A stretch of DNA of 64,000 bases. It comes from Pandoraea sp. Lineage in GTDB: Bacteria; Pseudomonadota; Gammaproteobacteria; Burkholderiales; Burkholderiaceae. The stretch spans positions 1 to 64,000 of the forward strand of contig NZ_SCSK01000053.1 of assembly GCF_004297875.1 (NCBI RefSeq). Reading direction: 5' to 3'. The position numbers were made by a program, and so were the translations under genes. The notes beneath the pieces are model-generated. The model did no database searches and was not told the origin of the DNA. It saw only the letters and a list, made by a program, of their open reading frames with translations. Shown piece by piece: positions 34,036 to 48,715 of this stretch (position 1 is the stretch's first letter; every line of letters starts with the position of its first letter).

Positions 34036-36876
34036 ATGCTGGAAGCGAGCTTTGATCATTCGGGGAAAAAAGTGATCGTACGTGGGCTTCATTTTGGCGG
34101 GCGACCGCCTGCCAAAGGTGTAAAGGAGCGGCTGTTCCGCCTGCTGCTTGCGGTCATGGGGTTTCTACTTATTGGTAGCGCCAACCCCGCCGTGGCGGCT
34201 GCCAGCCCGGCGGCGGCTGTTGCCAATCCAAATATTGCGTTTTATTACGGGGAGCACCCGCCGGTCGACGAGTTGCAGGCGTTCGATGACGTGGTGATCG
34301 ATCCCGCCGTCGCGGCACTGCCTGATACCCAGGCAACACCTCATACCGCCTGGCTGGCACGGCTCGACCTGCGAGCTCAGGCCGACAGCCCCGGGCAAAC
34401 GGCCGAAGCTTATGTCTCTGAGGCGGTAACGCCGCTTTGGAACAAGGGTTATCGCGGCTTCCTGCTCGACGACGGCGCACCGCTCGACCAGAATGACAGG
34501 CCCGACGATGCATGGCTTGCCGGGTTGGTGCAGGCAATTCACGCTCAATATCCCCAGGCGCGCGTGATGTTGCGCAATCACCTGGGGTTGGCCACGCGCA
34601 TTGCCGATCAGTTAAACGCCGTGATGGTCGACGCGCTGTACCGACGCTACGACCTGCTCGGCGGATTCTTTGCCAACGTGCCCGATGCCGAGCGCACCGA
34701 CGCGCTGCGGCGGATCCAGGCGCTGCGCCGCGGCGCCTCGTCGCTTGCCGTGGTTGCCGTCGATTACTGCGGGCGCGATGATCGGGCATGCCGGCGCGAC
34801 ACCGCGCGCCGGCTCGAACACGATGGCCTCACGCCGTTCGTCACCGACCCGAGCTTCGCGACGGTCGGCATCGGCCGCATCGAGGTCATGCCGCGCAAAA
34901 TTCTGGTCGTGCAGACGCCGGAGCAGGGCGAGCCGCTGGATCTGACGGCCGGCGTGCGCGACATCGCGATGCCGCTCAATTATCTCGGCTACGATATTCA
35001 GTATGCCGACGCCAATCAGGCATTGCCGCGCGACATCGACAGCGACCGCTATGCCGGCATCGTGGTGGCGATCGACCGGACGGTCGACAACCCCGATGCC
35101 TGGCGCCGTTGGCTGCTCGGCCGTATCCGCGCGGGCGTACGGGTCGCGGTGGTCGGGCAATTTGGTTTTCCGATCGATCAGGAAGCTGCCCGCGTGCTTG
35201 GCCTCGAAGTGGTGCCGGGGGCTGCTCCGCCCGACGTTGCGCCGCAGATCGTGGACAAGGCGCCGATGATGGGCTTCGAAATCCTGCCGCCGCCCGATAT
35301 TCGCGACGCTTTGGGCGTGCGCGTCGGGGCGCAGGGCAAACCGCTGCTGCGGCTGCAAGCCGGCAGCTACGTCTATGACATGGCCGGCATGTTGCCGTGG
35401 GGCGGCTACACGCTCGACCCCTACGGCATTGCCACCCTGGGCGGCATTCAGCAGGAGCGCTGGGCGATCCAGCCAATCGAATTCTTCGAGCAGGCCCTCG
35501 CGCTGCCCGAGATGCCCGTGCCGGACGTGACGACCGAAAACGGCCGCAGGCTCCTGTTCGTGCATGTCGACGGAGACGGCTTCGCCTCGCGTGCGGAGTT
35601 CCCTGGCCCCGCCTATGGCGGGCAGGCGCTGTACGATCAGATTTTCACCAAATTTCCGATCCCGATGACCCTTTCGGTGATCGAAGGCGAGGTCGGGCCG
35701 ACCGGCCTGTATCCGAAAATATCGCCGACGCTCGAGTCCATCGCGCGCCAGATCTTTGCCTTGCCGAATGTCGAAATCGGTAGCCATACATACTCGCATC
35801 CGTTCAATCTGGAGATGATCGATCCGAAGACCGGCGGGCGCATCACCGGCAAGGTCAGAAAGGAGTGGGGGGGCGACAGCGCGTTCTCACTCGATATCCC
35901 ACACTACAAATTCAATTTGAATCGCGAAATCCAGGGCTCGATCGACTACATCAATCGACGCCTGGCGCCGCCCGGCAAGCATGTTGTCGTGCTGCAATGG
36001 CCCGGCGACGCCGCACCGCCGGCCATCGCGGTGCGCCGCGCTTATGCGGCCGGCGTGCTCAATATCAACGGTGGCGATACGGTCATCACCAAAACCAACA
36101 ACAGCTGGACCAATATCGCGCCGTATGGCGTGTCCAAGGGGCCGCAGCCCGACGACTTTCAGGTCTATGCGGCCGACATGGACGAAAACGTCTACACCGG
36201 CGACTGGACCGGTCCGTTTTACGGTTTCACGCGTGCGCTGGAGACTTACGCGCTGACCGACCGGCCGATCCGCTTCAAGGCAATCGATATTTACTACCAC
36301 TTCTATTCGGGGACCAAGCTTGCATCGCTGCGCGCCTTGCGCCAGATATACGAGAGCACGCTCAAGCAGGCGGTTCTGCCGATCTACACGACCGAGTACA
36401 TCAAGCGCGTTCTCGACTGGCGCGGCGTCGCGGTGGCCCGCGAGGGCAATCGCTGGCTGGTGCGCTCCGGTCCCAATTTGCGCGAGTTGCGCTGGCCGCT
36501 CGGGCGCGGCGTCCCTGATCTGACCACCGCCACCGGGGTCAGCGGCTATCTGCCCGGGCCCGGTGGGCTGTATATCCACATGGGCGGGGACCAGGCCAGT
36601 TTCTCGATCACTCCCCATGCCACCGCCAGGATTCCCTATATCGCCGAGGCGGCGGGATTTGTGCGCCATTATCAACGAGATGCACGCACCATGAGCTTTG
36701 ATTTCGGCGGCTACTACAAGCCTTTCGTGAGCTTCGCCGATGCGAATGGCTGCCGCGTGACGGTCGACGGCAAGGCGATCGCGGCGCCGGTCAGAAACGG
36801 CGTCCTGCGCGTCGACGTCGCGGGGCGCGTGGCGCAGCAAGTGACCTACCATTCGCTCAAGGTGACCTGTGAATAG
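34036..36876 (+). CDS. pelA: PelA-like protein: GH114-like N-terminal domain plus polysaccharide deacetylase-like domain
   Basis: Signal peptide-like start; NIAFYYGEHPPVDELQAFDDVVIDP; deacetylase-like FVHVDGDGFASRAEF and EIGSHTYSHPFN; first gene of pelABCDEFG. Confidence 0.88.
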   Translation: MLEASFDHSGKKVIVRGLHFGGRPPAKGVKERLFRLLLAVMGFLLIGSANPAVAAASPAAAVANPNIAFYYGEHPPVDELQAFDDVVIDPAVAALPDTQATPHTAWLARLDLRAQADSPGQTAEAYVSEAVTPLWNKGYRGFLLDDGAPLDQNDRPDDAWLAGLVQAIHAQYPQARVMLRNHLGLATRIADQLNAVMVDALYRRYDLLGGFFANVPDAERTDALRRIQALRRGASSLAVVAVDYCGRDDRACRRDTARRLEHDGLTPFVTDPSFATVGIGRIEVMPRKILVVQTPEQGEPLDLTAGVRDIAMPLNYLGYDIQYADANQALPRDIDSDRYAGIVVAIDRTVDNPDAWRRWLLGRIRAGVRVAVVGQFGFPIDQEAARVLGLEVVPGAAPPDVAPQIVDKAPMMGFEILPPPDIRDALGVRVGAQGKPLLRLQAGSYVYDMAGMLPWGGYTLDPYGIATLGGIQQERWAIQPIEFFEQALALPEMPVPDVTTENGRRLLFVHVDGDGFASRAEFPGPAYGGQALYDQIFTKFPIPMTLSVIEGEVGPTGLYPKISPTLESIARQIFALPNVEIGSHTYSHPFNLEMIDPKTGGRITGKVRKEWGGDSAFSLDIPHYKFNLNREIQGSIDYINRRLAPPGKHVVVLQWPGDAAPPAIAVRRAYAAGVLNINGGDTVITKTNNSWTNIAPYGVSKGPQPDDFQVYAADMDENVYTGDWTGPFYGFTRALETYALTDRPIRFKAIDIYYHFYSGTKLASLRALRQIYESTLKQAVLPIYTTEYIKRVLDWRGVAVAREGNRWLVRSGPNLRELRWPLGRGVPDLTTATGVSGYLPGPGGLYIHMGGDQASFSITPHATARIPYIAEAAGFVRHYQRDARTMSFDFGGYYKPFVSFADANGCRVTVDGKAIAAPVRNGVLRVDVAGRVAQQVTYHSLKVTCE

Positions 36877-39800
36877 CGATCGTCCTCGCCTTTGTCCGCC
36901 ATGGCTGTCGGGTCTGATCGCCCTGGGTATCGTATTGGCCCTGGCGGCGGCCTATCCGCGCGGCGGCATGCAGGCCCGCCTGCTGGCCGCATCGCCGCCG
37001 AGCGAAGTCACGGTCGCCTACATCGAGGCGTGGCTTCGCATTGAGCCCAACTCGCCGACCTACCTGAGTTTGCTTGTCGATCAGTACATGGGGCTGGGGC
37101 AATGGGAGAAAGCCGAGCTGGCCGCGCAAAAGCTGGCGCTGATGGGCGGCGAAGACGGCCGCGCCAGGGCGCTGCTGATTCAGCTCACGGCGGCCGAGCG
37201 ACGGGCCTACGCGGTTAGGCCGGACGACCCACAGCGCCCGGCGCTGATGGTCAAATATATCGCGCTGCTCGAGCGCACTACCCAGCGCACCTGGGATGTA
37301 CCGGTGATGCGAGAGCTGGCGGCCAAGGCGCGCGCGGCGGGCGCGACCGGCGTGATGCTGCATTTTTACCGCGAGCTGGCCGCGGCCGACAGTGCCAATC
37401 GCGCTGAATGGGACGAAAAACTCGCTACCGAGGCGCTGGCCCAGCAATCGTACGCCGACGCCGCCAATGCCTACTTCGCCGCGCAGGATGCGGCGCAGAC
37501 CTTGCCGGACAAGCGACGCTATTTCATCGCGGCGCTCAAGGTGCTGGTCTCGGGCAATCAGGTCGGGCAAGCCTGTGATGAGGCCGCCAAACGCATCGGC
37601 GTGCTGGCCGAAGATCCGCAAACCTTGCGCTATCTGATCGGTCTGGCACGCCAGGCGCATCGCACGGACCTGATGAAGCGCTATGCGCGCGCCCTGGGCC
37701 AACTCTCCAGTCTTGAACCGGCCGGCCCGCACGTTGCGACCTTTGCGGCGGCGAACTCGCCCGGCACGGCCCGCCATCGGCCGGTCTATCTGGATGGGTA
37801 CGAAGCAAGCCTGCGCGGTGTTCGATTCGGTGGCGCCAGACTTCGACTGATCGCCGCGACGGCCCCGGCGGGTGCCAACGCGGTGACCCCCAGCGATTAC
37901 GATCTCGCCTTCAAGGCCTTTGTCGAGAGCGGAGCGCTCGACGACGCCGAGAAACTTGCCGAGCAGGCGCTCGCGCACCATCTGGACCCGCTCGTCTGGA
38001 CCCGTCGGCTGGCGCAAGTCGCGCAATGGAATAATCACCCGGCGCTGGCGCTCAAGTATTGGCTGGCGTTCGCGCGCGACTCCGGTAACGACGAAGCGTG
38101 GCAAAACGTCCTGAAGCTGGCGCCGCAACTGGATGACGATACCGCCTATGTTGCGGCCTTGACCCAAGAGGCAGATCGCCAACCCGCGAATCTGGCCTTG
38201 AAAGACCAGTTGATCAACGCCTATGAGCGCCTCGGCCAGCCGCAACAAGCGCTCGACTACCTGAAGCAACGCGCGGTAGGCGCGCAGCGAGAGCCGCTGC
38301 TCGAGCGCTATGCGCTCGTCGCCGAGCGGGCAGGGCAAGATAACGAGGCGCTGCGCACCTACCGCGTTCTGCAAACCGAATTCGGGCCGAACGCCAAATA
38401 TGCGCTGCATATCGCCAACCTCGAATACCAGCAGGGGCACTACGACGCGGCGCTCGATGCGTTGCGGCGGGTTCGCGACAAGACGCCGAGCCTTCCGCAG
38501 GACGCACTGTACTGGCGTACCTACAGCGAGCTGGCGCGGCTCACGCGGCATGACGAAGATGCCAACTTCGCTTATCAGCGGCTGCTGGCGACCGGACAGG
38601 CCGAGGCGACCGACTTGAGCGGCATGTCCTACTTCTATCAGGGCTATCCGATCGATGCCGGGCGCACCGCCGAAATGGCGTTCCGCAAGGACGGTTCGGC
38701 GAGGTCGCTGCAATCGGCGCTGTATTTCTATACCGTCGCCCACGCGTGGCCGCGCGTCCGGGATTTGCTGGCCAGCCTGACGCCCGCGCAACGCGACATG
38801 TTCGATCACTCGAGCGCGTTGCTCGCCGCCCGCGCGGACTATGAACGCCAGGTCGGGCAGTGGGATGCGTCGCTCGCCGATCTGCGGCGCGCGGCGTCGC
38901 TATCCGATGCCAGCGACGATACCAAGGTGTCGTATCTGTGGGCGCTGATCGACTTCGGCGGTGACGGCGAGCTGCGGCAGGCGATGCGCCGGTGGCGCTC
39001 GATTGCTGACGCCAACTCGGACTACTGGGGCGCCTATGGGGCGGGCGAGGTGCGTCTGGGCGATCCGGCGCGCGCGCTCAAGTACCTGCGCCGGCAAGTG
39101 TCGCAAGCGCAGGACGATCCTCTGTGGCTGATCGCCACAGCCGACGCGGAAGCCGCCGCCGGCCATGCCGACGTCGCCTGGCGACTGCGCCGCGCGGCCT
39201 GGCGCGCCCTGCCGGCCAAACTCGCCGCGCCAGCAGCGCCGGCCGCATCAACCGGGACCGGGGCTGCGCGATCTCACGTCGCGGCCTTGCCCGGCACGCC
39301 CGAGGCGATCGCCCAGGCGCGCATGGCGCAGGTGACGCTGAGCCAGACATTCACCAACGGCGACCGCTCGCGCGATCTGCTGATTGCGTTGCTCAAGGCC
39401 GATCGCCGCGAAAACGGCAGTGCGGCGGTGGCCCGCTCCCTGCTTGGCATGCGCGCCAAGGGGCTGGCCCCCGATCTTGTGATGCCGGATCAAGTGTCCG
39501 GCAAGACCGCGCAAGCGGCCGAGGCGCGCCGGCAACTGATCAGCGCGGCGGCCAAGGACGTCGTGCAGGCATGGGCGATCAGCGGCGAACACAATGAACT
39601 CGCGCGTGCCTGGCTTGCCAGGGAATACACCGATCGCTTGCTGCAGCCGGCCGATGCGCAGATCACGCTGGCGCTGGCCGACAACGATCACGAGGCGCTG
39701 GCGCGGGCGCTCGCGCACGGGCGCGGCGGCGTGCCGGTGGGCAGTCGCATCGATGCGCTCAATCGACTGGGACGGACCGACGAGGCGGAAACGGTTGCCT

Positions 39801-40789
39801 TTCGTGCCGTCCAGGGTGCGCCGGACAACGACGAACTGCAGGAGTCGCTGCGCGAGACGCTGCTGCGCGACCGCCCGGCGCTTGGCGCCGATGTCTTCGG
39901 CACCCGCGCCAGCCCGCTCAACAGTATCACCAGCTCGCTGCTGGGCGGTGTTGCCTTGACCGGCAGGCTTGCTTTGATTATCGAGGCGATCCAGCGCAAT
40001 CAGCACTCGGCCGATACCAGTCAACTGGCCTGGGTGCCTGCGCAAGACCGCTCGTTCGAGGCCACCTTGCGCGACCATACGGTAGAGCGCGACCTGTCGG
40101 CAAGCGTCGGACATCGCAATGCGGTCAACTCCTTCTATACCTTCAAGGTGCACGGCGAATTCAACCGGCGTGGGCCGCTGACCACGGACATTACCGCCGG
40201 GCTCAACCAGTTCACCGACATCTCGCCGCAGATGCAAGTCGCCTCGACCAAAGACATGCTGCGCATGGGAGCGCTGTGGGATACGCAAACGCGCTGGTTC
40301 ATGCAGGGCAGCGCCGAGGTCGATGGATTTCACGCGCAGGATCGCACCTACCTGGGGCGCGGCGTGATTCTCGCTGCCGAATTGGGTTACCGCCTGCGGC
40401 TTGGTTATCCCGACTGGAACGTGCGCCTGACTGGCGAGCGCGGCATTTATACCGCCAGCGGCAACGTGATCCCCTCGCTGGCGCGATTGCTGCCGGCGGG
40501 CCAGACGCCCACGGCGGACCAATTCATGCCGCAAAGTGTGACGCGTTATGGCCTGATGACCGGATTCGGCATGGATTACGAGAACGCCTATCGGCATGCC
40601 TGGGTTCCGTATCTCGACGTCGGTGTGGTGCACGACAGCATCGAGGGATGGGGTCCGCAGGTCAACGTGGGCCTGGCAGGCTCGATTTTTGGCAACGATC
40701 ATGCGCGCGTGTATTACTCGCATGAGGCAGTGACCGGCGGCGGAGCGTCGGTGACGCAACTCGGCGTGGCGTACCGTTTGTACTACTAG
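36869..40789 (+). CDS. pelB: PelB-like TPR / outer membrane beta-barrel protein
   Basis: 1306 aa with TPR-like repeats and a C-terminal barrel-like region ending TQLGVAYRLYY; GTG start overlaps pelA. Confidence 0.88.
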   Translation: MNSDRPRLCPPWLSGLIALGIVLALAAAYPRGGMQARLLAASPPSEVTVAYIEAWLRIEPNSPTYLSLLVDQYMGLGQWEKAELAAQKLALMGGEDGRARALLIQLTAAERRAYAVRPDDPQRPALMVKYIALLERTTQRTWDVPVMRELAAKARAAGATGVMLHFYRELAAADSANRAEWDEKLATEALAQQSYADAANAYFAAQDAAQTLPDKRRYFIAALKVLVSGNQVGQACDEAAKRIGVLAEDPQTLRYLIGLARQAHRTDLMKRYARALGQLSSLEPAGPHVATFAAANSPGTARHRPVYLDGYEASLRGVRFGGARLRLIAATAPAGANAVTPSDYDLAFKAFVESGALDDAEKLAEQALAHHLDPLVWTRRLAQVAQWNNHPALALKYWLAFARDSGNDEAWQNVLKLAPQLDDDTAYVAALTQEADRQPANLALKDQLINAYERLGQPQQALDYLKQRAVGAQREPLLERYALVAERAGQDNEALRTYRVLQTEFGPNAKYALHIANLEYQQGHYDAALDALRRVRDKTPSLPQDALYWRTYSELARLTRHDEDANFAYQRLLATGQAEATDLSGMSYFYQGYPIDAGRTAEMAFRKDGSARSLQSALYFYTVAHAWPRVRDLLASLTPAQRDMFDHSSALLAARADYERQVGQWDASLADLRRAASLSDASDDTKVSYLWALIDFGGDGELRQAMRRWRSIADANSDYWGAYGAGEVRLGDPARALKYLRRQVSQAQDDPLWLIATADAEAAAGHADVAWRLRRAAWRALPAKLAAPAAPAASTGTGAARSHVAALPGTPEAIAQARMAQVTLSQTFTNGDRSRDLLIALLKADRRENGSAAVARSLLGMRAKGLAPDLVMPDQVSGKTAQAAEARRQLISAAAKDVVQAWAISGEHNELARAWLAREYTDRLLQPADAQITLALADNDHEALARALAHGRGGVPVGSRIDALNRLGRTDEAETVAFRAVQGAPDNDELQESLRETLLRDRPALGADVFGTRASPLNSITSSLLGGVALTGRLALIIEAIQRNQHSADTSQLAWVPAQDRSFEATLRDHTVERDLSASVGHRNAVNSFYTFKVHGEFNRRGPLTTDITAGLNQFTDISPQMQVASTKDMLRMGALWDTQTRWFMQGSAEVDGFHAQDRTYLGRGVILAAELGYRLRLGYPDWNVRLTGERGIYTASGNVIPSLARLLPAGQTPTADQFMPQSVTRYGLMTGFGMDYENAYRHAWVPYLDVGVVHDSIEGWGPQVNVGLAGSIFGNDHARVYYSHEAVTGGGASVTQLGVAYRLYY

Positions 40790-40861
40790 CGCGCCGAGAC
40801 GGAAGAGGCGGGCATCGCGCGGCTAGTGGCCGCTGTTTCATCAAAACCGGAGAGGAAGAAA

Positions 40862-41401
40862 ATGAAAGGCTTGAGAGCGGGAAATATTTATCGGCTGATC
40901 GGCGCCGTGCTGCTGGCTGTGCTGGCGGGCTGCTCCACGATCGACGCGGGACATGCGCCCGCCCTGAGCAAGACCGACAACTGGGCGCTGTTGCCGGTAG
41001 CGAACTACACGGAAACGCCGGAAGCGGGCAAACGCGCCGAGAGCATCGCACAGAGCGTGCTGCAGCAGGATGGCTTCACCAACCTGTGGCAATACCCCGG
41101 CGATAACGATACCGACGCGCTGCTCAACGGTCACCCCAATGCCGCGCGAGCCAAGGCGCTGGCATGGGCGCGCAAGGCGGGCGCTCGCTACGCGCTGACC
41201 GGCTCGGTGCAGGAATGGCGTTACAAGGTCGGCGTGGACGGCGAGCCGGTGGCCGGCTTGACGTTCGACGTGATCGACGTGAGCACGGGCAAGATCGTGT
41301 GGAGTGCCACGGGCAGCCGCAGCGGTTGGAGTCGCTCGAGTCTGGCCGGCGTCGGTCAAACGCTGATCCGCCAGTTGCTGGCCCCGCTCGCGCAACGCTG
41401 A
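40862..41401 (+). CDS. pelC: PelC-like outer membrane lipoprotein
   Basis: Lipobox LLAVLAGC; NWALLPVANYTETPEAGKRAESIAQSVLQQDG; position in operon. Confidence 0.85.
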   Translation: MKGLRAGNIYRLIGAVLLAVLAGCSTIDAGHAPALSKTDNWALLPVANYTETPEAGKRAESIAQSVLQQDGFTNLWQYPGDNDTDALLNGHPNAARAKALAWARKAGARYALTGSVQEWRYKVGVDGEPVAGLTFDVIDVSTGKIVWSATGSRSGWSRSSLAGVGQTLIRQLLAPLAQR

Positions 41402-41402
41402 G

Positions 41403-42797
41403 GTGTCCGCCGTGCAAACCGATAAGCAAACATCGCCGCCGCAAGCGCGGGCCTCAGATCCACTCGGGAACGTCGGCTACTACGGCCGTTTGCTTGCACC
41501 GGCGCTCACGCGTCCCGTTGCCGTCGTGGAAGTCATCTGCGTGATGGCGCTGGTGATCGGTTGCAGTTACTTGCTGCGACCTGCGGATCCGCTGTTGCTG
41601 CATATCGGCTTTCCGTGGCTGTGGCTGGTCGCCGCGATCATGGCACTGCGCTACGGCGCGTTGCTCGGTGTGCTGGCAGGAATCTGCATCACCGCTGCCT
41701 GGTACGGATTTTACGGGCACGCGGCAGGCGCGGAATTTCCGGCCATGTTCTTCGTCGGCGGTCTGGCGCTGGTGGTGATCTCGGGACATTTTTGCGACAT
41801 CTGGGGCAATCGCGCCAATCGCATCAGCAGCATCAACACCTATCTGAGCGACCGGCTGGTAGCGATTACGAACAATCACTACCTGCTGCGCATCTCGCAC
41901 GATCGGCTCGAGCATGACGTGCTGACCCGGCCGGTCACGATGCGCGATGCGATCATGCGCTTGCGGGATTTCTCGCCAGCCCGGAACAACGCTGCGCCCG
42001 ATGCGCCGTTGCCCAACGTTCAGGGCATGCTGGAATTCGCCGCGTTGACCTGCCAAATCGGCGACGCATCGATATTTCCCGTGACAAAGGGCCGTGTCGA
42101 GCGTGTGGCCGCCGCGTCGGTAGGGGAGTCCTTCGAAGTCGATTCCGACGATCCGCTATTGCGTGATTGTCTTGAGAAGAGCGCGCTTTCGCATTTGCGC
42201 GAGCTCGATGAAACGGGCCGCAGCGCCTATCTGGTATGCGCTCCGCTGATCGCGGCATCTGGCAAGCTGATCGGGGTGCTGGTTGTGCGGCGCATGGCCT
42301 TTTTGTCGCTCAATCAGGACAACCTGCAACTGCTGCTGGTGCTGCTCGGCTACTACGCCGACAGCGTCGAACATCGCGCGATGGTCGACGCGATCACCCA
42401 GCGCGTGCCCGATTGCCCCTATGATTTTGCACTCGAACTGGCCCGTCTGACGCATATGAAGCGCGCCAGCAATATCGATTCCGCGCTGGTGGCACTGGTG
42501 TTCGCCCGCGACGCCGACGGCGATTCGCTGTTCGATCAGGTGACCCGGACGCGGCGTGCGCTGGACGTGCTCTGGGCGTTGCGCGATGACGAGCGTCAGG
42601 TGGCGATCACCCTCATGCCGCTGACCGACGACAACGGCATCAACGGCTATCTGATGCGCACCGAAAACACCCTGAAAAGCCAGTTTTCGACCGACTTCGA
42701 AAAATCGCGTGTCGCGGTGCATACGGTTGCGGTCAGCCCGACCGATCCTGGCGACGTGTTGCAGCGTTTGCTCCAACGGTGCGGCCATCATGGCTAA
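41403..42797 (+). CDS. pelD: PelD-like c-di-GMP receptor (TM + GAF + degenerate GGDEF)
   Basis: N-terminal TM helices, GAF-like central region, C-terminal degenerate GGDEF with RALD (RxxD); position in operon. Confidence 0.85.
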   Translation: MSAVQTDKQTSPPQARASDPLGNVGYYGRLLAPALTRPVAVVEVICVMALVIGCSYLLRPADPLLLHIGFPWLWLVAAIMALRYGALLGVLAGICITAAWYGFYGHAAGAEFPAMFFVGGLALVVISGHFCDIWGNRANRISSINTYLSDRLVAITNNHYLLRISHDRLEHDVLTRPVTMRDAIMRLRDFSPARNNAAPDAPLPNVQGMLEFAALTCQIGDASIFPVTKGRVERVAAASVGESFEVDSDDPLLRDCLEKSALSHLRELDETGRSAYLVCAPLIAASGKLIGVLVVRRMAFLSLNQDNLQLLLVLLGYYADSVEHRAMVDAITQRVPDCPYDFALELARLTHMKRASNIDSALVALVFARDADGDSLFDQVTRTRRALDVLWALRDDERQVAITLMPLTDDNGINGYLMRTENTLKSQFSTDFEKSRVAVHTVAVSPTDPGDVLQRLLQRCGHHG

Positions 42798-43794
42798 GAT
42801 GCTGCGCTCATTACTGTTTGGCGTGCTGGCGCTGCTCGCGCAAGGCAAGGCGGTCTATTCGTTGTGGCACCCGCTTGGCGGGATCGATCCGATGGTCGTG
42901 TTCTTTGTCTGGCAAGCGTTGGCCGCGCTGGCAACCGCGTTGTTCGTGAGTGACATTCTGCCGCCGCATTACCGCCGGGCGAGGAGCGGCGCGTTTGTGC
43001 ATGTTTTTGTCATTTGCCTGTTTCTCCCGGTCGCCGGCCTGGTGCTGTTTCTCAGCTTGATCCTCGTGGCGCTGATGTTCCCCACGCCGCCCGATGACGT
43101 CCCGATCGAGGCCGTCGAGGCGCCGCAATTTGCCACCTATCTGGTCTCCCGTGTGACCCACGGCACGGGCGCCCGGTTGCGCGCTCGCCTGGAGAATCTG
43201 CGCGCGCCCGCCGGCGATCGCGTCGCCGCGCTGGTCGCCATGCAATCGCTGCCGTCGCGCATCAGCAGCGGGCTGCTGCACGACTTGCTGTCCGACCCCA
43301 TCGAGGAGATTCGCCTGTTGGCTTACGGCATTGTCGATGGCACCGAAAAGGAGATCATGCAAAAGATCTTCGTGGCCAGGGCGCAGCTCGAGCGGGCCGC
43401 CGGCGGGAGCGAGCGGGGGCTGGCCTGCTCCCGCCTGGCCGAACTGTATTGGGAATTGATTTATCAGCATCTGGTGCAGGGCGAGGTCTACCGCTATACC
43501 CTCGAGCAGGTAGAGTCGTTTGCGCAACAGGCCCTGGCGCAAGGACAGGAGGCCGCCGTGATGTGCTATCTGCTCGGGCGCTGCGCGTTGCTGCGCAACG
43601 CTGCCGAGCGCGCGGAGGAATTCTTCCGGCGCGCCCAGGCGTTGCGCTTTCCGGCCGACCGGCTGGCGCCCTGGCTGGCCGAAGTGGCGTTTCTCAAGGG
43701 TGACTACGAGCGCATTCCGCCATTGCTCGATACACTCAACAAGGCGACGGCCACGCCTTTTCTGCAACCCATCGTGCGCTATTGGTCTCAATGA
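42790..43794 (+). CDS. pelE: PelE-like membrane protein
   Basis: Two N-terminal TM helices followed by TPR-like region; overlaps pelD by 8 nt and pelF by ATGA. Confidence 0.82.
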   Translation: MAKMLRSLLFGVLALLAQGKAVYSLWHPLGGIDPMVVFFVWQALAALATALFVSDILPPHYRRARSGAFVHVFVICLFLPVAGLVLFLSLILVALMFPTPPDDVPIEAVEAPQFATYLVSRVTHGTGARLRARLENLRAPAGDRVAALVAMQSLPSRISSGLLHDLLSDPIEEIRLLAYGIVDGTEKEIMQKIFVARAQLERAAGGSERGLACSRLAELYWELIYQHLVQGEVYRYTLEQVESFAQQALAQGQEAAVMCYLLGRCALLRNAAERAEEFFRRAQALRFPADRLAPWLAEVAFLKGDYERIPPLLDTLNKATATPFLQPIVRYWSQ

Positions 43795-45344
43795 ACTCAG
43801 ATCTCCATCGCCGCGCGGCTTCGGCCGATATCGCCTTGCTGCTCGAGGGCACGTTCCCCTATGTGCGCGGGGGTGTCTCGGCGTGGGTCAATCAGATGAT
43901 CCGCGCCTTTCCGGAATTCACATTCGCGATTGCCTTCATCGGCAGCCGGCGCGACGATTATGGCGGCGCGCACTACGCGCTGCCCGACAACGTGGTGCAC
44001 TTCGAGGAACACTACCTGTACGATTTCGAGACGGACAAGCCGGTGATCAGCAGCCAGGGCGACCGTCAAGCGTTCGAGCACGTCGCGCGCATGCACGATG
44101 AACTCAAGCAGCACAAGCACGCCGGGGCGATCGGCAAACTGATGCGCGAACTGATGCCGATGCTCGAGGAGGGCGGACCGATCAGCGAACAGGAATTCCT
44201 GCACAGCCAGCGCTCGTGGGATGTCATCACCGACCGCTACAACCGGTTTTGCACCGATCCGTCGTTCACCGACTATTTCTGGACGGTGCGCATCATGCAC
44301 AAGCCCTTGTGGCAACTGGCGCGGATCGCCGAGAGGCTGCCACAGGCCAAGATCTACCACACGGTGTCGACCGGTTACGCCGGGTTTCTCGGTGCGCTGC
44401 TGCATTTTCGCCATGGCCGCCCGTTGCTGGTGTCGGAGCACGGCATTTATACGAAAGAGCGCAAGATCGACCTGTTGCAAAGTCAGTGGATTCGCGACAA
44501 CCGCGGTATTTTCGAGCGCGACGTCTCGCAAGTCGGCTACTTCCAGGAACTGTGGGTGCGCTTTTTCGAGGCGATCGGGCGCATTGCCTACGAGGCGGCC
44601 AGCGATATCGTCGCGCTCTACGAAGGCAATCGCCTGCGCCAGTTGGAGGACGGCGCCCCGCCGGACAAGACCTGCAGTATTCCGAACGGCATTGCCGTGG
44701 CGCAGTTTGCGCCGCTGCGCGCCCAGCGCCCGGCGAGCGTGCCGCCGGTGGTGGCGCTGATCGGCCGGGTCGTGCCGATCAAGGACATCAAGACATTCAT
44801 TCGCGCGATGTTCATCGTCAAGCGCCAGTTGCCGGCGGCGCAGGGGTGGATCATCGGCCCGGAAACCGAGGATCCCGATTATGCGCAGGAGTGCCGCGAC
44901 CTGATCGACAGCCTGGGCATGCAGGAAAGCATCAAAATGATGGGTTTTCGCCAGATCCGCGAACTGTTGCCGGACGTCGGCCTGGTGGCCCTGAGCTCGA
45001 TCAGCGAGGCCTTGCCGCTGGTCGTGCTCGAGGCCTTTGCCGCGGGCGTGCCGGTCGTGACCACCGACGTCGGTTCCTGCCGGCAACTGGTCGAGGGGCT
45101 CGATGGCGACGACAGGGCGCTGGGCGCCGCCGGCAAGGTGGTGCAGATCGCCGATCCGGAGAAATTTGCCCAGGCGGTGCTGGCGCTGCTCGGCGACGAA
45201 GACGCGTGGCGAGCCGCGCAGCGAGCTGGCATCGCGCGCGTCGAGCGTTACTATACGCACACGCTGATGGAAGACAGCTACCGGTCGCTGTATCGCAAGC
45301 TGATCGCGGACAGTGCCGGGCAACAATCCTCGGAGACGCAATAA
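43791..45344 (+). CDS. pelF: PelF-like glycosyltransferase (GT4)
   Basis: DIALLLEGTFPYVRGGVSAWVNQMIRAFPEFTFAIAFIGS...ALIGRVVPIKDIKTFIRA...VALSSISEALPLVVLEAFAAGVPVVTTDVGSCRQLVEG. Confidence 0.93.
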   Translation: MNSDLHRRAASADIALLLEGTFPYVRGGVSAWVNQMIRAFPEFTFAIAFIGSRRDDYGGAHYALPDNVVHFEEHYLYDFETDKPVISSQGDRQAFEHVARMHDELKQHKHAGAIGKLMRELMPMLEEGGPISEQEFLHSQRSWDVITDRYNRFCTDPSFTDYFWTVRIMHKPLWQLARIAERLPQAKIYHTVSTGYAGFLGALLHFRHGRPLLVSEHGIYTKERKIDLLQSQWIRDNRGIFERDVSQVGYFQELWVRFFEAIGRIAYEAASDIVALYEGNRLRQLEDGAPPDKTCSIPNGIAVAQFAPLRAQRPASVPPVVALIGRVVPIKDIKTFIRAMFIVKRQLPAAQGWIIGPETEDPDYAQECRDLIDSLGMQESIKMMGFRQIRELLPDVGLVALSSISEALPLVVLEAFAAGVPVVTTDVGSCRQLVEGLDGDDRALGAAGKVVQIADPEKFAQAVLALLGDEDAWRAAQRAGIARVERYYTHTLMEDSYRSLYRKLIADSAGQQSSETQ

Positions 45345-46723
45345 TGGCCGGTATCGGTTTCGAGCTGCGTAAGATACTCAAGCGCGATAGCCTGACCGGT
45401 ACGCTGACCGCTTACGGCTACGCCGGCATCATCAGCGCCGGGCCCCTGGTGCTATCGATTCTGGGCATGCTGCTCATCGGCCTGCTCAGCCTGTCGACGG
45501 TGGAGCCGCCGGTGCGGATCGTGCAGTTCCAGATTTCCGTCACCTACCTGATGGCCGTCAGCCTGATCGTCACCGGCGCATTGCAGTTGTCGTTCACGCG
45601 TTTCATTTCCGATCGCCTGTTCGAACGGCGACCCGATCGCGTGCTGCCGAACTACAACGCTGTGGCGCTCGTCACGACCGTGATCACCGGCTTGTCGGGC
45701 CTGATCCTCGCCTTGACGGCATTTCGACACGAATCGACGCTTTACCGCCTGCTGATGCTGGCCGGGTTTGTGATCATCAGCAATATCTGGATCGGTGTGA
45801 TTTTCCTTACCAGCGTCAAGCAATATCGGGCTGTTCTGGCGATTTTCTTCGTCGGCTATCTTGCCACGGTGATTTTTGCCGTCGCGCTCAACCGCTATGG
45901 CCTGAATGGTTTGATGGGCGGTTTTGTGATTGGCCACTTGATCCTGCTGGTCGGCCTGACCAGCCTGATCCATCGCAACTACCGCTCCGACGACTACATT
46001 GCGTGGGAAGTTTTCGACCGACGCTTTGCCTATCCGAGCCTGATGTTCGTTGGCGTGTTGTTCAATCTGGGCGTGTGGCTGGACAAATTCATGTTCTGGT
46101 TTTCTCCGGCGACCGGGCATGTGGTGATCGGCCCGTTGCGTGCATCACTCATTTACGACTTGCCGGTCTTTATCTCGTATCTTTGCGTGATTCCCGGCAT
46201 GGCTGTGTTTTTGCTGCGTATCGAGACCGATTTCGTCGACTACTACGATGCCTATTACGACGCCATCCGCAGCGGCGGTACGCTGAAGTACATCCAGGAC
46301 ATGCGTGACATGATGGTGCGCAGCGTGCGCACCGGCCTGTATGAAATCCTCAAAATCCAGGCATTGGTCACCTTGCTGATCTTTGCGTTCGGCGACAAAC
46401 TGCTTCGCCTGCTTGGCATCTCGACGCTTTACCTGCCGCTATTGCACATCGATGTGATCTCGGCGAGCCTGCAAGTGCTGTTCCTGGGCGCGCTCAACAT
46501 CTTCTTCTACCTCGACCGGCGTCGCGTGGTGCTGGGGCTCACAGCCACCTTCGTGGTGCTTAGCGGCCTGTTTACCTGGATCACCCTGGAGGCGGGGCCG
46601 AACACCTACGGTTATGGCTATGCCGGTGCGCTTCTGGTGGTGATGCTGCTGTCGGTGGACATGCTCGACCGGCGCTTCGCCTCGCTCGAGTATGACACCT
46701 ATATGCTGCAGAAAGATGCGTGA
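45344..46723 (+). CDS. pelG: PelG-like multi-spanning membrane protein
   Basis: MAGIGFELRKILKRDSLTGTLTAYGYAGIISAGPLVLSILGMLLIGLLS; ~12 TM helices; TAATG overlap with pelF. Confidence 0.93.
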   Translation: MAGIGFELRKILKRDSLTGTLTAYGYAGIISAGPLVLSILGMLLIGLLSLSTVEPPVRIVQFQISVTYLMAVSLIVTGALQLSFTRFISDRLFERRPDRVLPNYNAVALVTTVITGLSGLILALTAFRHESTLYRLLMLAGFVIISNIWIGVIFLTSVKQYRAVLAIFFVGYLATVIFAVALNRYGLNGLMGGFVIGHLILLVGLTSLIHRNYRSDDYIAWEVFDRRFAYPSLMFVGVLFNLGVWLDKFMFWFSPATGHVVIGPLRASLIYDLPVFISYLCVIPGMAVFLLRIETDFVDYYDAYYDAIRSGGTLKYIQDMRDMMVRSVRTGLYEILKIQALVTLLIFAFGDKLLRLLGISTLYLPLLHIDVISASLQVLFLGALNIFFYLDRRRVVLGLTATFVVLSGLFTWITLEAGPNTYGYGYAGALLVVMLLSVDMLDRRFASLEYDTYMLQKDA

Positions 46724-47618
46724 GCCACGGCCGGCGGCTGCGCCGCCTTTCAGTGCCGGTCGCGCCGCGCGCCGGGCCCGGGCCGGATGGCGACCCTTGC
46801 TGGCCGGGCTGATGGCGTCGCTTTGCCTGGGCAAGGCGATTGCGGCACCCGCGCCATTGCCCTGGAGCATTGCTTTCTACTACGGGGATTCGCCCCCGCT
46901 GGCGCAACTGGCGGAATTCGACCTCGCCGTGATCGAGCCCGACAGCGGATTCGATCCCACCGCATTCCCGGCCCTGCCGACGCAATGGTTTGCGTATGTC
47001 AGCGTGGGCGAAGTCGATCCATCGCGCAGTTACTATGCGCAGATTCCCAAGCGCTGGCTGATCGGCCGCAATGGCGAGTGGCATGCAAGCGTCGTTGACC
47101 CGGCCGCGCCCGGCTGGCCCGCGTTTTTCGTCGCGCATGTGATCGATCCGCTGTGGAAGCAGGGTTATCGCGGCTTTTTCCTGGATACGCTGGATTCCTA
47201 TCAACTGGTGGCCAAAACCGACGTGCAGCGCGAGCGTGACCGCGCCGGCCTGGTGGCGCTCATCGAGGCGATCCATCGACGCTACCCGACGGCCAGGCTG
47301 ATCCTCAATCGCGGCTTCGAGCTGTTGCCCGAGGTACACGACGCCGTTTTCGCCGTGGCATTCGAATCGCTGTACCAAGGTTGGAGCGAAGCGGCTGGCC
47401 GATACGTCGAAGTCCCGCAAGACGACCGCCAATGGCTGCTCGGCCAGGCCGACCTGATCAGGCAGCGTTATGGTTTGCCAGTGATCTCGATCGATTACTG
47501 CGCACCTGCCGACGCCGAATGCGCGAGCCGCACGGTGGCGCGCATCAAAGCGTTGGGTATTGTGCCGTACGTCGGCGATGGCCACCTGCAGACGGTCAAC
47601 CCGGCATCGGCGAATTAG
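46716..47618 (+). CDS. Stand-alone secreted GH114/PelA-hydrolase-like protein
   Basis: Signal peptide RPLLAGLMASLCLGKAIA; WSIAFYYGDSPPLAQLAEFDLAVIEP...GYRGFFLDTLDSYQL...LNRGFELLPEVHDAVFAVAFESLYQGWSEAAGRYVEVPQDDRQWLLGQADLIRQRYGLPVISIDYC. Confidence 0.85.
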   Translation: MREPRPAAAPPFSAGRAARRARAGWRPLLAGLMASLCLGKAIAAPAPLPWSIAFYYGDSPPLAQLAEFDLAVIEPDSGFDPTAFPALPTQWFAYVSVGEVDPSRSYYAQIPKRWLIGRNGEWHASVVDPAAPGWPAFFVAHVIDPLWKQGYRGFFLDTLDSYQLVAKTDVQRERDRAGLVALIEAIHRRYPTARLILNRGFELLPEVHDAVFAVAFESLYQGWSEAAGRYVEVPQDDRQWLLGQADLIRQRYGLPVISIDYCAPADAECASRTVARIKALGIVPYVGDGHLQTVNPASAN

Positions 47619-47662: not shown

Positions 47663-48715
47663 ATGAATACCGCCTCCAAACGCACCATTCTCGTGACCGG
47701 TGGCGCCGGCTATATCGGCTCGCACACCTGCGTCGAGTTACTGTCCCGGGGCGATCGCGTCGTGGTGCTGGACAACCTGGCCAACAGCTGCGCCGAATCG
47801 ATCGAGCGGGTGCGCCGGATCACCGGCCACGAGATCGAACTGATCGTGGCCGACGCATGCTCGGCCGAGGCCATGCAACGGGTCTTCGACACCTATCCGA
47901 TCGACGCGGCGATTCATTTTGCCGCGCTCAAATCGCTGGGCGAGTCGATCAGCCAGCCGCTGGCCTACTACCGCAACAACCTCGACAGTCTGCTGACACT
48001 GGTCGATACCATGAGTCGCCGCAACGTCAAGACCCTGGTCTTCAGTTCGTCAGCAGCGGTGTATGGCATTCCCGCCTCGGTGCCGGTCGACGAGTCGTTT
48101 CCGCTGCAGGCAGGCACGCCTTACGGGCGCACCAAATTGATGGGCGAACAGATTCTGTCCGATCTGGCCGCAGCCGACCCGCAATGGCGTATCGGCATGC
48201 TGCGCTACTTCAATCCGGTCGGGGCGCACCAGAGCGGTTTGATCGGCGAGGACTCGTCCGACGCGCCGAGCAATCTGATGCCCTATGTCGCGCAGGTCGC
48301 GGCCGGCAAACAACCGATTTTGAGGGTTTTCGGGGGCGACTACGACACCATCGACGGCACTGGCGTGCGTGACTATATCCACGTCGTGGATCTGGCGCGC
48401 GGGCACCTTGCCGCACTGGACACGCTGTTTGGGCAGCCCGGCGGATTCACCGTCAATCTGGGCACCGGGCGCGGCTACAGTGTGTTGCAGATGATCGAAG
48501 CCTTCGAGCAGGCCAGCGGGCGCAAGATCCCCTACGAAATCGTCGCGCGTCGCGCGGGCGACGTCGGCGCCTGTTACGCCGATGCGTCCGCGGCAGCACG
48601 TCAACTGGGCTGGCGCGCCACACTCGGGATCGAGCGCATGTGCGCCGACCAGTGGCGTTGGCAATCGCAAAACCCCGATGGCTTTGGCCGGCGCAAGCCC
48701 CCGACGGCAACCTGA
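47663..48715 (+). CDS. UDP-hexose(amine) 4-epimerase, GalE family; PelX candidate
   Basis: ILVTGGAGYIGSHTCVELL, YGRTKLMGEQIL, ARRAGDVGACYADASAAARQLGWRATLGIERMCADQWRWQSQNPDGFG. Confidence 0.9.
   Translation: MNTASKRTILVTGGAGYIGSHTCVELLSRGDRVVVLDNLANSCAESIERVRRITGHEIELIVADACSAEAMQRVFDTYPIDAAIHFAALKSLGESISQPLAYYRNNLDSLLTLVDTMSRRNVKTLVFSSSAAVYGIPASVPVDESFPLQAGTPYGRTKLMGEQILSDLAAADPQWRIGMLRYFNPVGAHQSGLIGEDSSDAPSNLMPYVAQVAAGKQPILRVFGGDYDTIDGTGVRDYIHVVDLARGHLAALDTLFGQPGGFTVNLGTGRGYSVLQMIEAFEQASGRKIPYEIVARRAGDVGACYADASAAARQLGWRATLGIERMCADQWRWQSQNPDGFGRRKPPTAT

Follow-up and report, generated by a model that had tools for sequence, protein, structure and literature searches.

A complete pel operon followed by a separate hydrolase gene in Pandoraea sp.

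We analysed a 64,000-nucleotide stretch of DNA from Pandoraea sp. (NCBI RefSeq assembly GCF_004297875.1, contig NZ_SCSK01000053.1, positions 1 to 64,000), hereafter referred to as the window, that carries a locus for Pel production. The genes pelABCDEFG are complete and in this order on the + strand, including those for the PelB barrel, the PelD GGDEF domain and PelF that mark a Gram-negative pel operon, and they are followed by a separate gene for a hydrolase of the PelA type and by galE (Table 1). An initial annotation of this DNA had proposed that the hydrolase domain of PelA is degenerate and that an intact stand-alone paralogue is encoded at the end of the operon; the motifs and coordinates that it quoted for both proteins are all present. 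Given the E values of their matches, chance similarity of either protein to PelA is ruled out.

The hydrolase domain of PelA has decayed

The catalytic residues of the P. aeruginosa PelA hydrolase domain (PelA-h) are Asp160 and Glu218, whose equivalents in P. thermotolerans, D149 and E207, are required for cutting (PMC12022489). We aligned the proteins of the window with P. aeruginosa PelA-h (5TCB), 9CGY, 50 intact PelA domains and the separate copies of the hydrolase, which gave 76 intact domains in total. Tyr96, Ser98, Glu101, Asp160, Asp163, Asn199, Arg200, Gly201, Phe202, Glu218 and Tyr261 (P. aeruginosa numbering, used throughout for reference positions) are kept in all 76. The N-terminal domain of the window PelA, in which the corresponding motifs read GYRGFLLDDGAPLDQ, LRNHLG and VMVDALYRRYD, departs from this pattern. 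Along with the substitutions listed in Table 1, Ser98 is replaced by Asp111, Glu101 by Ala114 and Asp163 by Ala148, and the NRGF motif is gone; Tyr261 is kept as well as Asp160. Because Asp160 is retained, as Asp145, the active site is largely, rather than wholly, replaced. The initial annotation, which had named conservation of the catalytic Glu or Asp in PelA as the observation that would contradict degeneracy, is thus borne out for Glu218 and not for Asp160.

The missing residues are apparent from the stretch matching P. aeruginosa residues 56-261, which comprises 174 amino acids (aa) in the window PelA as compared with 201-211 in intact domains, with the shortfall falling around residues 93-152. 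A Pfam scan gave no match to PF03537 for the window PelA, whereas the separate protein does match this family (1.6e-20, 74 bits). As a control, all of 21 intact PelAs match PF03537, with a best value of 5e-24, while 6 of 21 decayed PelAs do so weakly, with a best value of 1e-6. In sum, the domain lacks the complete Asp160/Glu218 pair, the set formed by NRGF, Tyr96, Glu101 and Asp163, a full-length barrel and a PF03537 match. The deacetylase part of the same protein is complete with respect to CE21 enzymes, having HxDxD, HxxxH, the Glu of motif 4 and the His of motif 5 (HVDGDGF, SHTYSHP, ENVYT and YYHFYSG, respectively), in agreement with the earlier statement that HVDGDGF and HTYSHP are kept.

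The separate hydrolase is intact and is probably expressed with the operon

The motifs of the separate open reading frame (ORF), for which there is an alternative ATG at 46692, read GYRGFFLDTLDSYQL, LNRGFE and VAFESLYQGW. All 16 inspected residues are kept, including Asp160, Glu218, Tyr96, Glu101, Asp163 and NRGF, and, with its signal-peptide-like N-terminus, the protein conforms to the proposed intact paralogue. It matches 5TCB with E = 7e-53, and its model (predicted local distance difference test (pLDDT) 89.9) superimposes on that structure with a template modelling score (TM) of 0.87 and a root-mean-square deviation of 2.4 Å at 41% identity. We take its family number to be GH166.

There is an 8 bp overlap between the gene and the pelG stop region (ATGCGTGA), as is often seen where translation of adjacent genes is coupled. 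A promoter scan of the interval from pelG to galE, of a kind that performs poorly on GC-rich genomes, detected no sigma-70-like promoter, and an independent promoter for the free gene was rejected on this basis. Because of the overlap, the lack of a detected promoter and the conserved gene order, expression of the free hydrolase is probably coupled to the operon, such that it is probably produced together with the other pel gene products. The suggestion in the initial annotation that cleavage could be regulated independently is therefore not supported; what the split uncouples is the tethering, dose and location of cutting rather than its expression.

Among the neighbouring genes, the first start codon of the pelE ORF lies inside pelD, and translation probably begins at an ATG further on, near 42787. 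The galE product probably supplies UDP-GalNAc.

Table 1. Features of the Pandoraea sp. pel locus (Pa, P. aeruginosa).
Feature	Position	Strand	Remarks
pelA	34036..36876	+	946 aa; match to full-length PelA 9CGY, E = 3.2e-139
pelA product, N- to C-terminus			signal-type N-terminus, decayed hydrolase-type domain, alpha/beta domain, CE21-type deacetylase, beta-rich domain
Decayed hydrolase domain of PelA, residues ~66-290	34231..34905	+	~30 residues shorter; barrel strands modelled with high confidence
Arg109 in place of invariant Tyr96	34360..34362	+	alignment to intact domains
Asp145, equivalent to catalytic Asp160 of Pa PelA, kept	34468..34470	+	alignment
Arg-Asn-His 180-182 in place of invariant Asn-Arg-Gly 199-201	34573..34581	+	alignment
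Asp199 in place of catalytic Glu218	34630..34632	+	alignment
Deacetylase motif 1 HVDGDGF (Pa His526, Asp528, Asp530)	35563..35583	+	intact; residue roles from PMC12022489
Deacetylase metal-binding motif HTYSHP (Pa His600, His604)	35785..35802	+	intact; residue roles from PMC12022489
pelB	36869..40789	+	TPR repeats and C-terminal outer-membrane barrel; PF13429, PF24604 1.9e-66
pelC-like lipoprotein gene	40826..41401	+	weak LpoB match; position; homologues at same place in related loci
pelD	41403..42797	+	GAF and degenerate GGDEF; PF16963 2.9e-42
pelE ORF	42709..43794	+	position and homologues
pelF glycosyltransferase gene	43782..45344	+	NF038011 PelF, 3.2e-257
pelG	45344..46723	+	459 aa; stop codon overlapped by separate hydrolase gene
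Separate PelA-h-type (PF03537) hydrolase gene	46716..47618	+	300 aa; signal-peptide-like N-terminus
Asp157, equivalent to catalytic Asp160 of Pa PelA	47184..47186	+	alignment
Asn-Arg-Gly-Phe-Glu 198-202, invariant in intact domains	47307..47321	+	alignment
Glu217, equivalent to catalytic Glu218 of Pa PelA	47364..47366	+	alignment
galE, UDP-glucose 4-epimerase	47663..48715	+	TIGR01179 1.7e-126

Decayed PelA and the separate hydrolase occur together

Genome searches covered the genus, family, order, class and named species, with a sparse sample at the class level. Operon-borne PelA of the decayed type was identified in 59 distinct genomes (23, together with G000 and G005, 33 more, and G762), a number that counts genomes and not evolutionary events. 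Named hosts include Pandoraea, Paraburkholderia, a Burkholderia sp., Eoetvoesiella, Paracandidimonas, a Castellaniella metagenome-assembled genome (MAG), Chromobacterium haemolyticum, Xenophilus sp. AP218F and Ferrovum, with the Alcaligenaceae also represented. A separate intact hydrolase gene is present in 57 of the 59, and no separate copy was found in any of the 52 distinct genomes checked that have only intact PelA; the co-occurrence of PelA motif loss with the stand-alone gene, which the initial annotation had suggested surveying, is therefore evident. One exception, G436, is a fragmentary 1.3 Mb MAG in which the pelA contig is 5.7 kb long; the other, G762, is considered below. In the separate copies examined, the residue set is intact wherever it is covered, except that two of them each carry a single non-catalytic change. 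L164/G277 was considered as a further split case and dropped, as no PelA deacetylase was found in that genome.

Across several families, the usual position of the free gene is directly after pelG, with galE next. Variants of this order include Ferrovum, where galE lies upstream of pelA, and other Pandoraea, where glmS and then galE follow the free hydrolase; the glmS-like gene between the two in other Pandoraea species (L168 15142-16971) probably serves precursor supply. The free hydrolase is found directly upstream of pelA in two loci (L174 and L235) and on another replicon in G502. In Paraburkholderia and Eoetvoesiella, extra PF03537 (GH114-type) proteins with lipoprotein-like N-termini adjoin the free hydrolase (L175 14136-15290, L177 14003-15157 and L173 15973-16869). 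The C-terminal part of PelA is frameshifted in Ferrovum myxofaciens P3G (L090/L017), reflecting either a sequencing error or a pseudogene.

A single main origin of the split

In a tree built from the deacetylase alone, with the hydrolase columns excluded, the operon-borne decayed PelAs form a single clade adjoining intact Burkholderiaceae PelA, with a Shimodaira-Hasegawa-like approximate likelihood ratio test (SH-aLRT) value of 100, the only kind of support computed for these trees. In a tree of the hydrolase domain, which has long branches for the decayed domains and includes no Gram-positive PelAH, the free copies branch among the intact Burkholderiaceae PelA domains, at about 58-65% identity, and are therefore paralogues of the same domain. 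The simplest history would be that part of pelA, namely its own hydrolase domain, was duplicated in a single ancestral operon, that the copy within PelA then decayed, and that the operon later moved between families. As the main clade represents one event, the 57 of 59 genomes are evidence of long joint retention rather than of many independent origins.

Two more lineages of decayed PelA lie outside the main clade, in genus g182 (L264, L266, L272 and L273) and in G590 (L268). These are orphan copies: the 20 kb read revealed neither a clear pel operon nor other clear pel genes, and in each genome concerned the other PelA is intact. Their decay appears from the tree to be independent of that in the main clade, and they may act on some other polysaccharide. 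Apart from the MAG exception G436, no decayed PelA was seen without an intact hydrolase domain elsewhere in the genome.

The decayed domain retains its fold and is under constraint

Among 57 decayed PelAs, the position of Glu218 is occupied by Asp in 23, Pro in 13, Gly in 8, Glu in 8, Gln in 2, and Ser, His and Ala in 1 each. The Asn199-Arg200-Gly201-Phe202 motif and Glu101 are nearly always gone, and the position of Tyr96 is Arg in 52 of the 57. A pattern DD...RNH...D is common to Pandoraea, Burkholderia L27 and the Alcaligenaceae, and Chromobacterium has KNH instead of RNH. Those positions that are best conserved among the decayed domains resemble core and packing residues.

In a model of the full-length window PelA, the pLDDT is ~90 over the decayed domain, the barrel strands are present with a TM of 0.70 to 5TCB, and the protein as a whole matches 9CGY. 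The ratio of nonsynonymous to synonymous substitution rates (dN/dS) for close pairs is 0.08-0.24 in the decayed domain and 0.04-0.13 in the rest of the same PelAs, with a dN in the decayed domain 1 to 5 times that of the rest; the pairs are few and not independent, and dS is saturated in some. By comparison, the hydrolase domain is the slower-evolving part in 4 of 5 pairs of intact PelAs. The decayed domain is thus under purifying selection and still modelled as a confident TIM barrel, and it is probably kept as structure. With fold and constraint both retained, it can be regarded as a folded part of PelA in which the catalytic centre is no longer maintained.

A probable division of labour between PelA and its free paralogue

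We consider that the two enzymatic jobs of PelA are divided between a PelA with a decayed domain and a free paralogue, with a probability of roughly 0.85. Support at the level of sequence comes from the decay itself, the intact free copy, their co-occurrence, the origin of the main clade in one event, the preserved fold and the purifying selection; what we infer is that PelA has lost cutting, that the free enzyme acts on Pel, and where it does so. PelA would still work with the PelB/PelC export machinery, taking acetyl groups off the Pel polymer, and its N-terminal TIM barrel, with the residues and loops for Pel cutting lost, would be kept as a structural and possibly binding part. The free paralogue, encoded by the last pel gene, would be exported via its signal peptide and do the cutting, which may serve to trim the polymer to cell-free Pel, to clear misdirected periplasmic polymer or to loosen the matrix.

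Several observations weigh against this division. Asp can sometimes partly stand in for a catalytic Glu, and the window PelA has Asp199 at that position. Asp160 is kept in 47 of the 57 decayed domains, including that of the window, and 2 of the 57 retain both Asp160 and Glu218, albeit with the other conserved residues missing. In G762, a decayed PelA is encoded in a complete pel operon but no free hydrolase is present; this genome also has a second, intact pel operon. Lastly, the co-occurrence stems from one main origin and does not amount to dozens of independent tests.

The retention of Asp160, the prevalence of Arg at the position of Tyr96, the shared DD...RNH...D pattern, the confident fold and the dN/dS values could also mean that the N-terminal domain of PelA is repurposed rather than dead, with a remodelled pocket that binds Pel or a partner, or that cleaves a polymer with a different acetylation, leaving acetylated Pel to the free enzyme. 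We find this rather unlikely, as eight different residues, including Pro and Gly, occupy the Glu218 position and Asn199, Arg200 and Gly201 vary widely, which is unlike a working catalytic centre, and the top-conserved positions look like those of a protein core. Somewhat more credible, although still not what we favour, is that the decayed domain is mere packing for the rest of PelA and that the free gene encodes an extracellular dispersal enzyme rather than a replacement for the former step of PelA. The crystal structure of PelA shows its four domains packed into a compact unit (PMC12022489), the decayed domain is less constrained than the deacetylase part, and the free hydrolases known from B. 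cereus (PMC7112168) and S. intermedius (PMC12345266) disrupt Pel outside the cell. However, the free copy and the PelA domain are paralogues, the place of the free gene in the operon is conserved, and this gene is present where PelA has decayed, which suggests a takeover of the same step.

Extra GH114-type genes near some of these operons raise the question of whether the free gene is a foreign accessory, either a Gram-positive PelAH or a general GH114 enzyme, with the decay of PelA unconnected to it. This is very improbable: the free copies fall with the intact PelA domains of Burkholderiaceae, their closest structure is 5TCB rather than a GH114 or GH191 enzyme, and the association is 57/59 versus 0/52. 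For the sampled sequences, a foreign origin was rejected on the hydrolase-domain tree, in which no Gram-positive PelAH is included. The frameshifted Ferrovum copy is the one instance that would fit motif loss through errors of sequencing, frame or assembly, or through random decay of a pseudogene; since the frames are open in nearly all 59 genomes, whether from isolates or MAGs, and the domain is under purifying selection and shows the same pattern in close relatives, we regard such a cause as excluded.

A more specific form of the division between PelA and its paralogue can be offered tentatively. The PelA hydrolase domain may be a conserved pseudoenzyme with a job of its own, for instance to bind Pel or PelB or to gate what passes on to the deacetylase, its old active site being occupied by Arg, and cutting may have been handed to the free paralogue in one ancestral operon that later spread across beta-proteobacterial families. 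Similar decay would then have occurred at least two more times in orphan PelAs, always with an intact hydrolase domain elsewhere.

Related arrangements in other pel loci

A reverse variant is found in seven divergent pel loci (L247-L253, from G667, G587, G742, G631, G752, G687 and G777), where an intact hydrolase gene is followed by pelB and pelC, opposite pelDEFG; the pelB/pelC region of L253 was not covered. No PelA deacetylase was found in these genomes at 1e-10. In L252 (9727-11679) and L253, a 667-aa protein is encoded beside the hydrolase gene. It resembles, by search in the case of L252, the Aspergillus CE18 deacetylase Agd3 (6nwz, 1.2e-26), as though CE18 had taken the place of CE21.

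In other orders of the class, pelA is cleanly fissioned into a hydrolase gene followed by that of a deacetylase without a hydrolase domain, with a 4 bp overlap (L260 7282-10628 and L261 7214-10287). In another order, an intact PelA operon is found together with a distant separate hydrolase gene (L258 9178-9900 and L263, G1134), and a genome of the same genus as G1134 has a separate hydrolase copy with no other pel gene near (L257 9303-10049, G960).

Comparison with known Pel systems

Free hydrolases beside pel operons are already known in Gram-positive bacteria. In B. cereus, PelAH (BCE_5582) is a free, active enzyme whose activity is abolished by E213A, and galE also flanks the pel operon (PMC7112168). 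The pelDEADAFG operon of this species, with PelADA and PelAH, resembles the window in having deacetylase and hydrolase on separate proteins, with the free hydrolase and galE beside the operon (PMC7112168, PMC13254593). The PelA of B. cereus, however, is without any hydrolase domain and the free gene is divergently transcribed, whereas in the window the decayed domain is retained and the gene is co-directional and overlapping. Moreover, unlike B. cereus, the window system has PelB and PelC for outer-membrane export. With a decayed domain, pelB and pelC all present, it therefore differs from the split pel loci of Gram-positive bacteria, which are defined by a PelA without a hydrolase domain and by the absence of PelB and PelC. 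Streptococcus intermedius likewise encodes a separate active hydrolase, SIR_1591, in its pel cluster (PMC12345266), but this is another hydrolase type and, unlike the free enzyme of the window, is not a paralogue of the PelA domain. The GH191 (TM1410) and GH114 (Ega3) galactosaminidases have a related TIM barrel, and the free enzyme belongs to PF03537, the Pfam family named for GH114; they are structurally farther from it, with a target TM of about 0.55-0.74 compared to 0.87 for 5TCB. Homologues of the free PelA-h-type enzyme, for which the expected activity is that of an endo-alpha-1,4-N-acetylgalactosaminidase, are active hydrolases (PMC7112168, PMC12022489), and the clade yields dozens of such small enzymes as candidate biofilm-dispersing reagents.

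In the open-access literature searched, we found no paper on a Gram-negative PelA that retains a decayed hydrolase domain alongside a relocated intact copy, and nothing on a pseudoenzyme PelA or on pelABCDEFG in Pandoraea; searches for Paraburkholderia and beta-proteobacteria yielded general papers only. The annotation of PelA as a bifunctional enzyme on the basis of similarity is probably wrong for many Burkholderiaceae.

The closest comparison is with PelA from P. aeruginosa and P. thermotolerans (5TCB and 9CGY; CE21 and hydrolase). As in the window, a four-domain PelA heads pelABCDEFG, with intact deacetylase motifs and the same TIM-barrel fold, but the barrel of the window PelA is without Glu218, Tyr96, Glu101, Asp163, NRGF and ~30 residues, and the cutting residues are found in a separate protein. 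A 2025 study reported that both active sites are conserved in full-length Gram-negative PelA homologues and that both activities could be essential (PMC12022489); the clade described here runs against the claim of conserved active sites and provides a counter-example. In P. aeruginosa, where one PelB-binding PelA carries both activities, it is difficult to disentangle cutting, deacetylation and export, whereas the clade constitutes a natural experiment in which cutting may be deleted or dosed as a gene of its own, with PelA left untouched.

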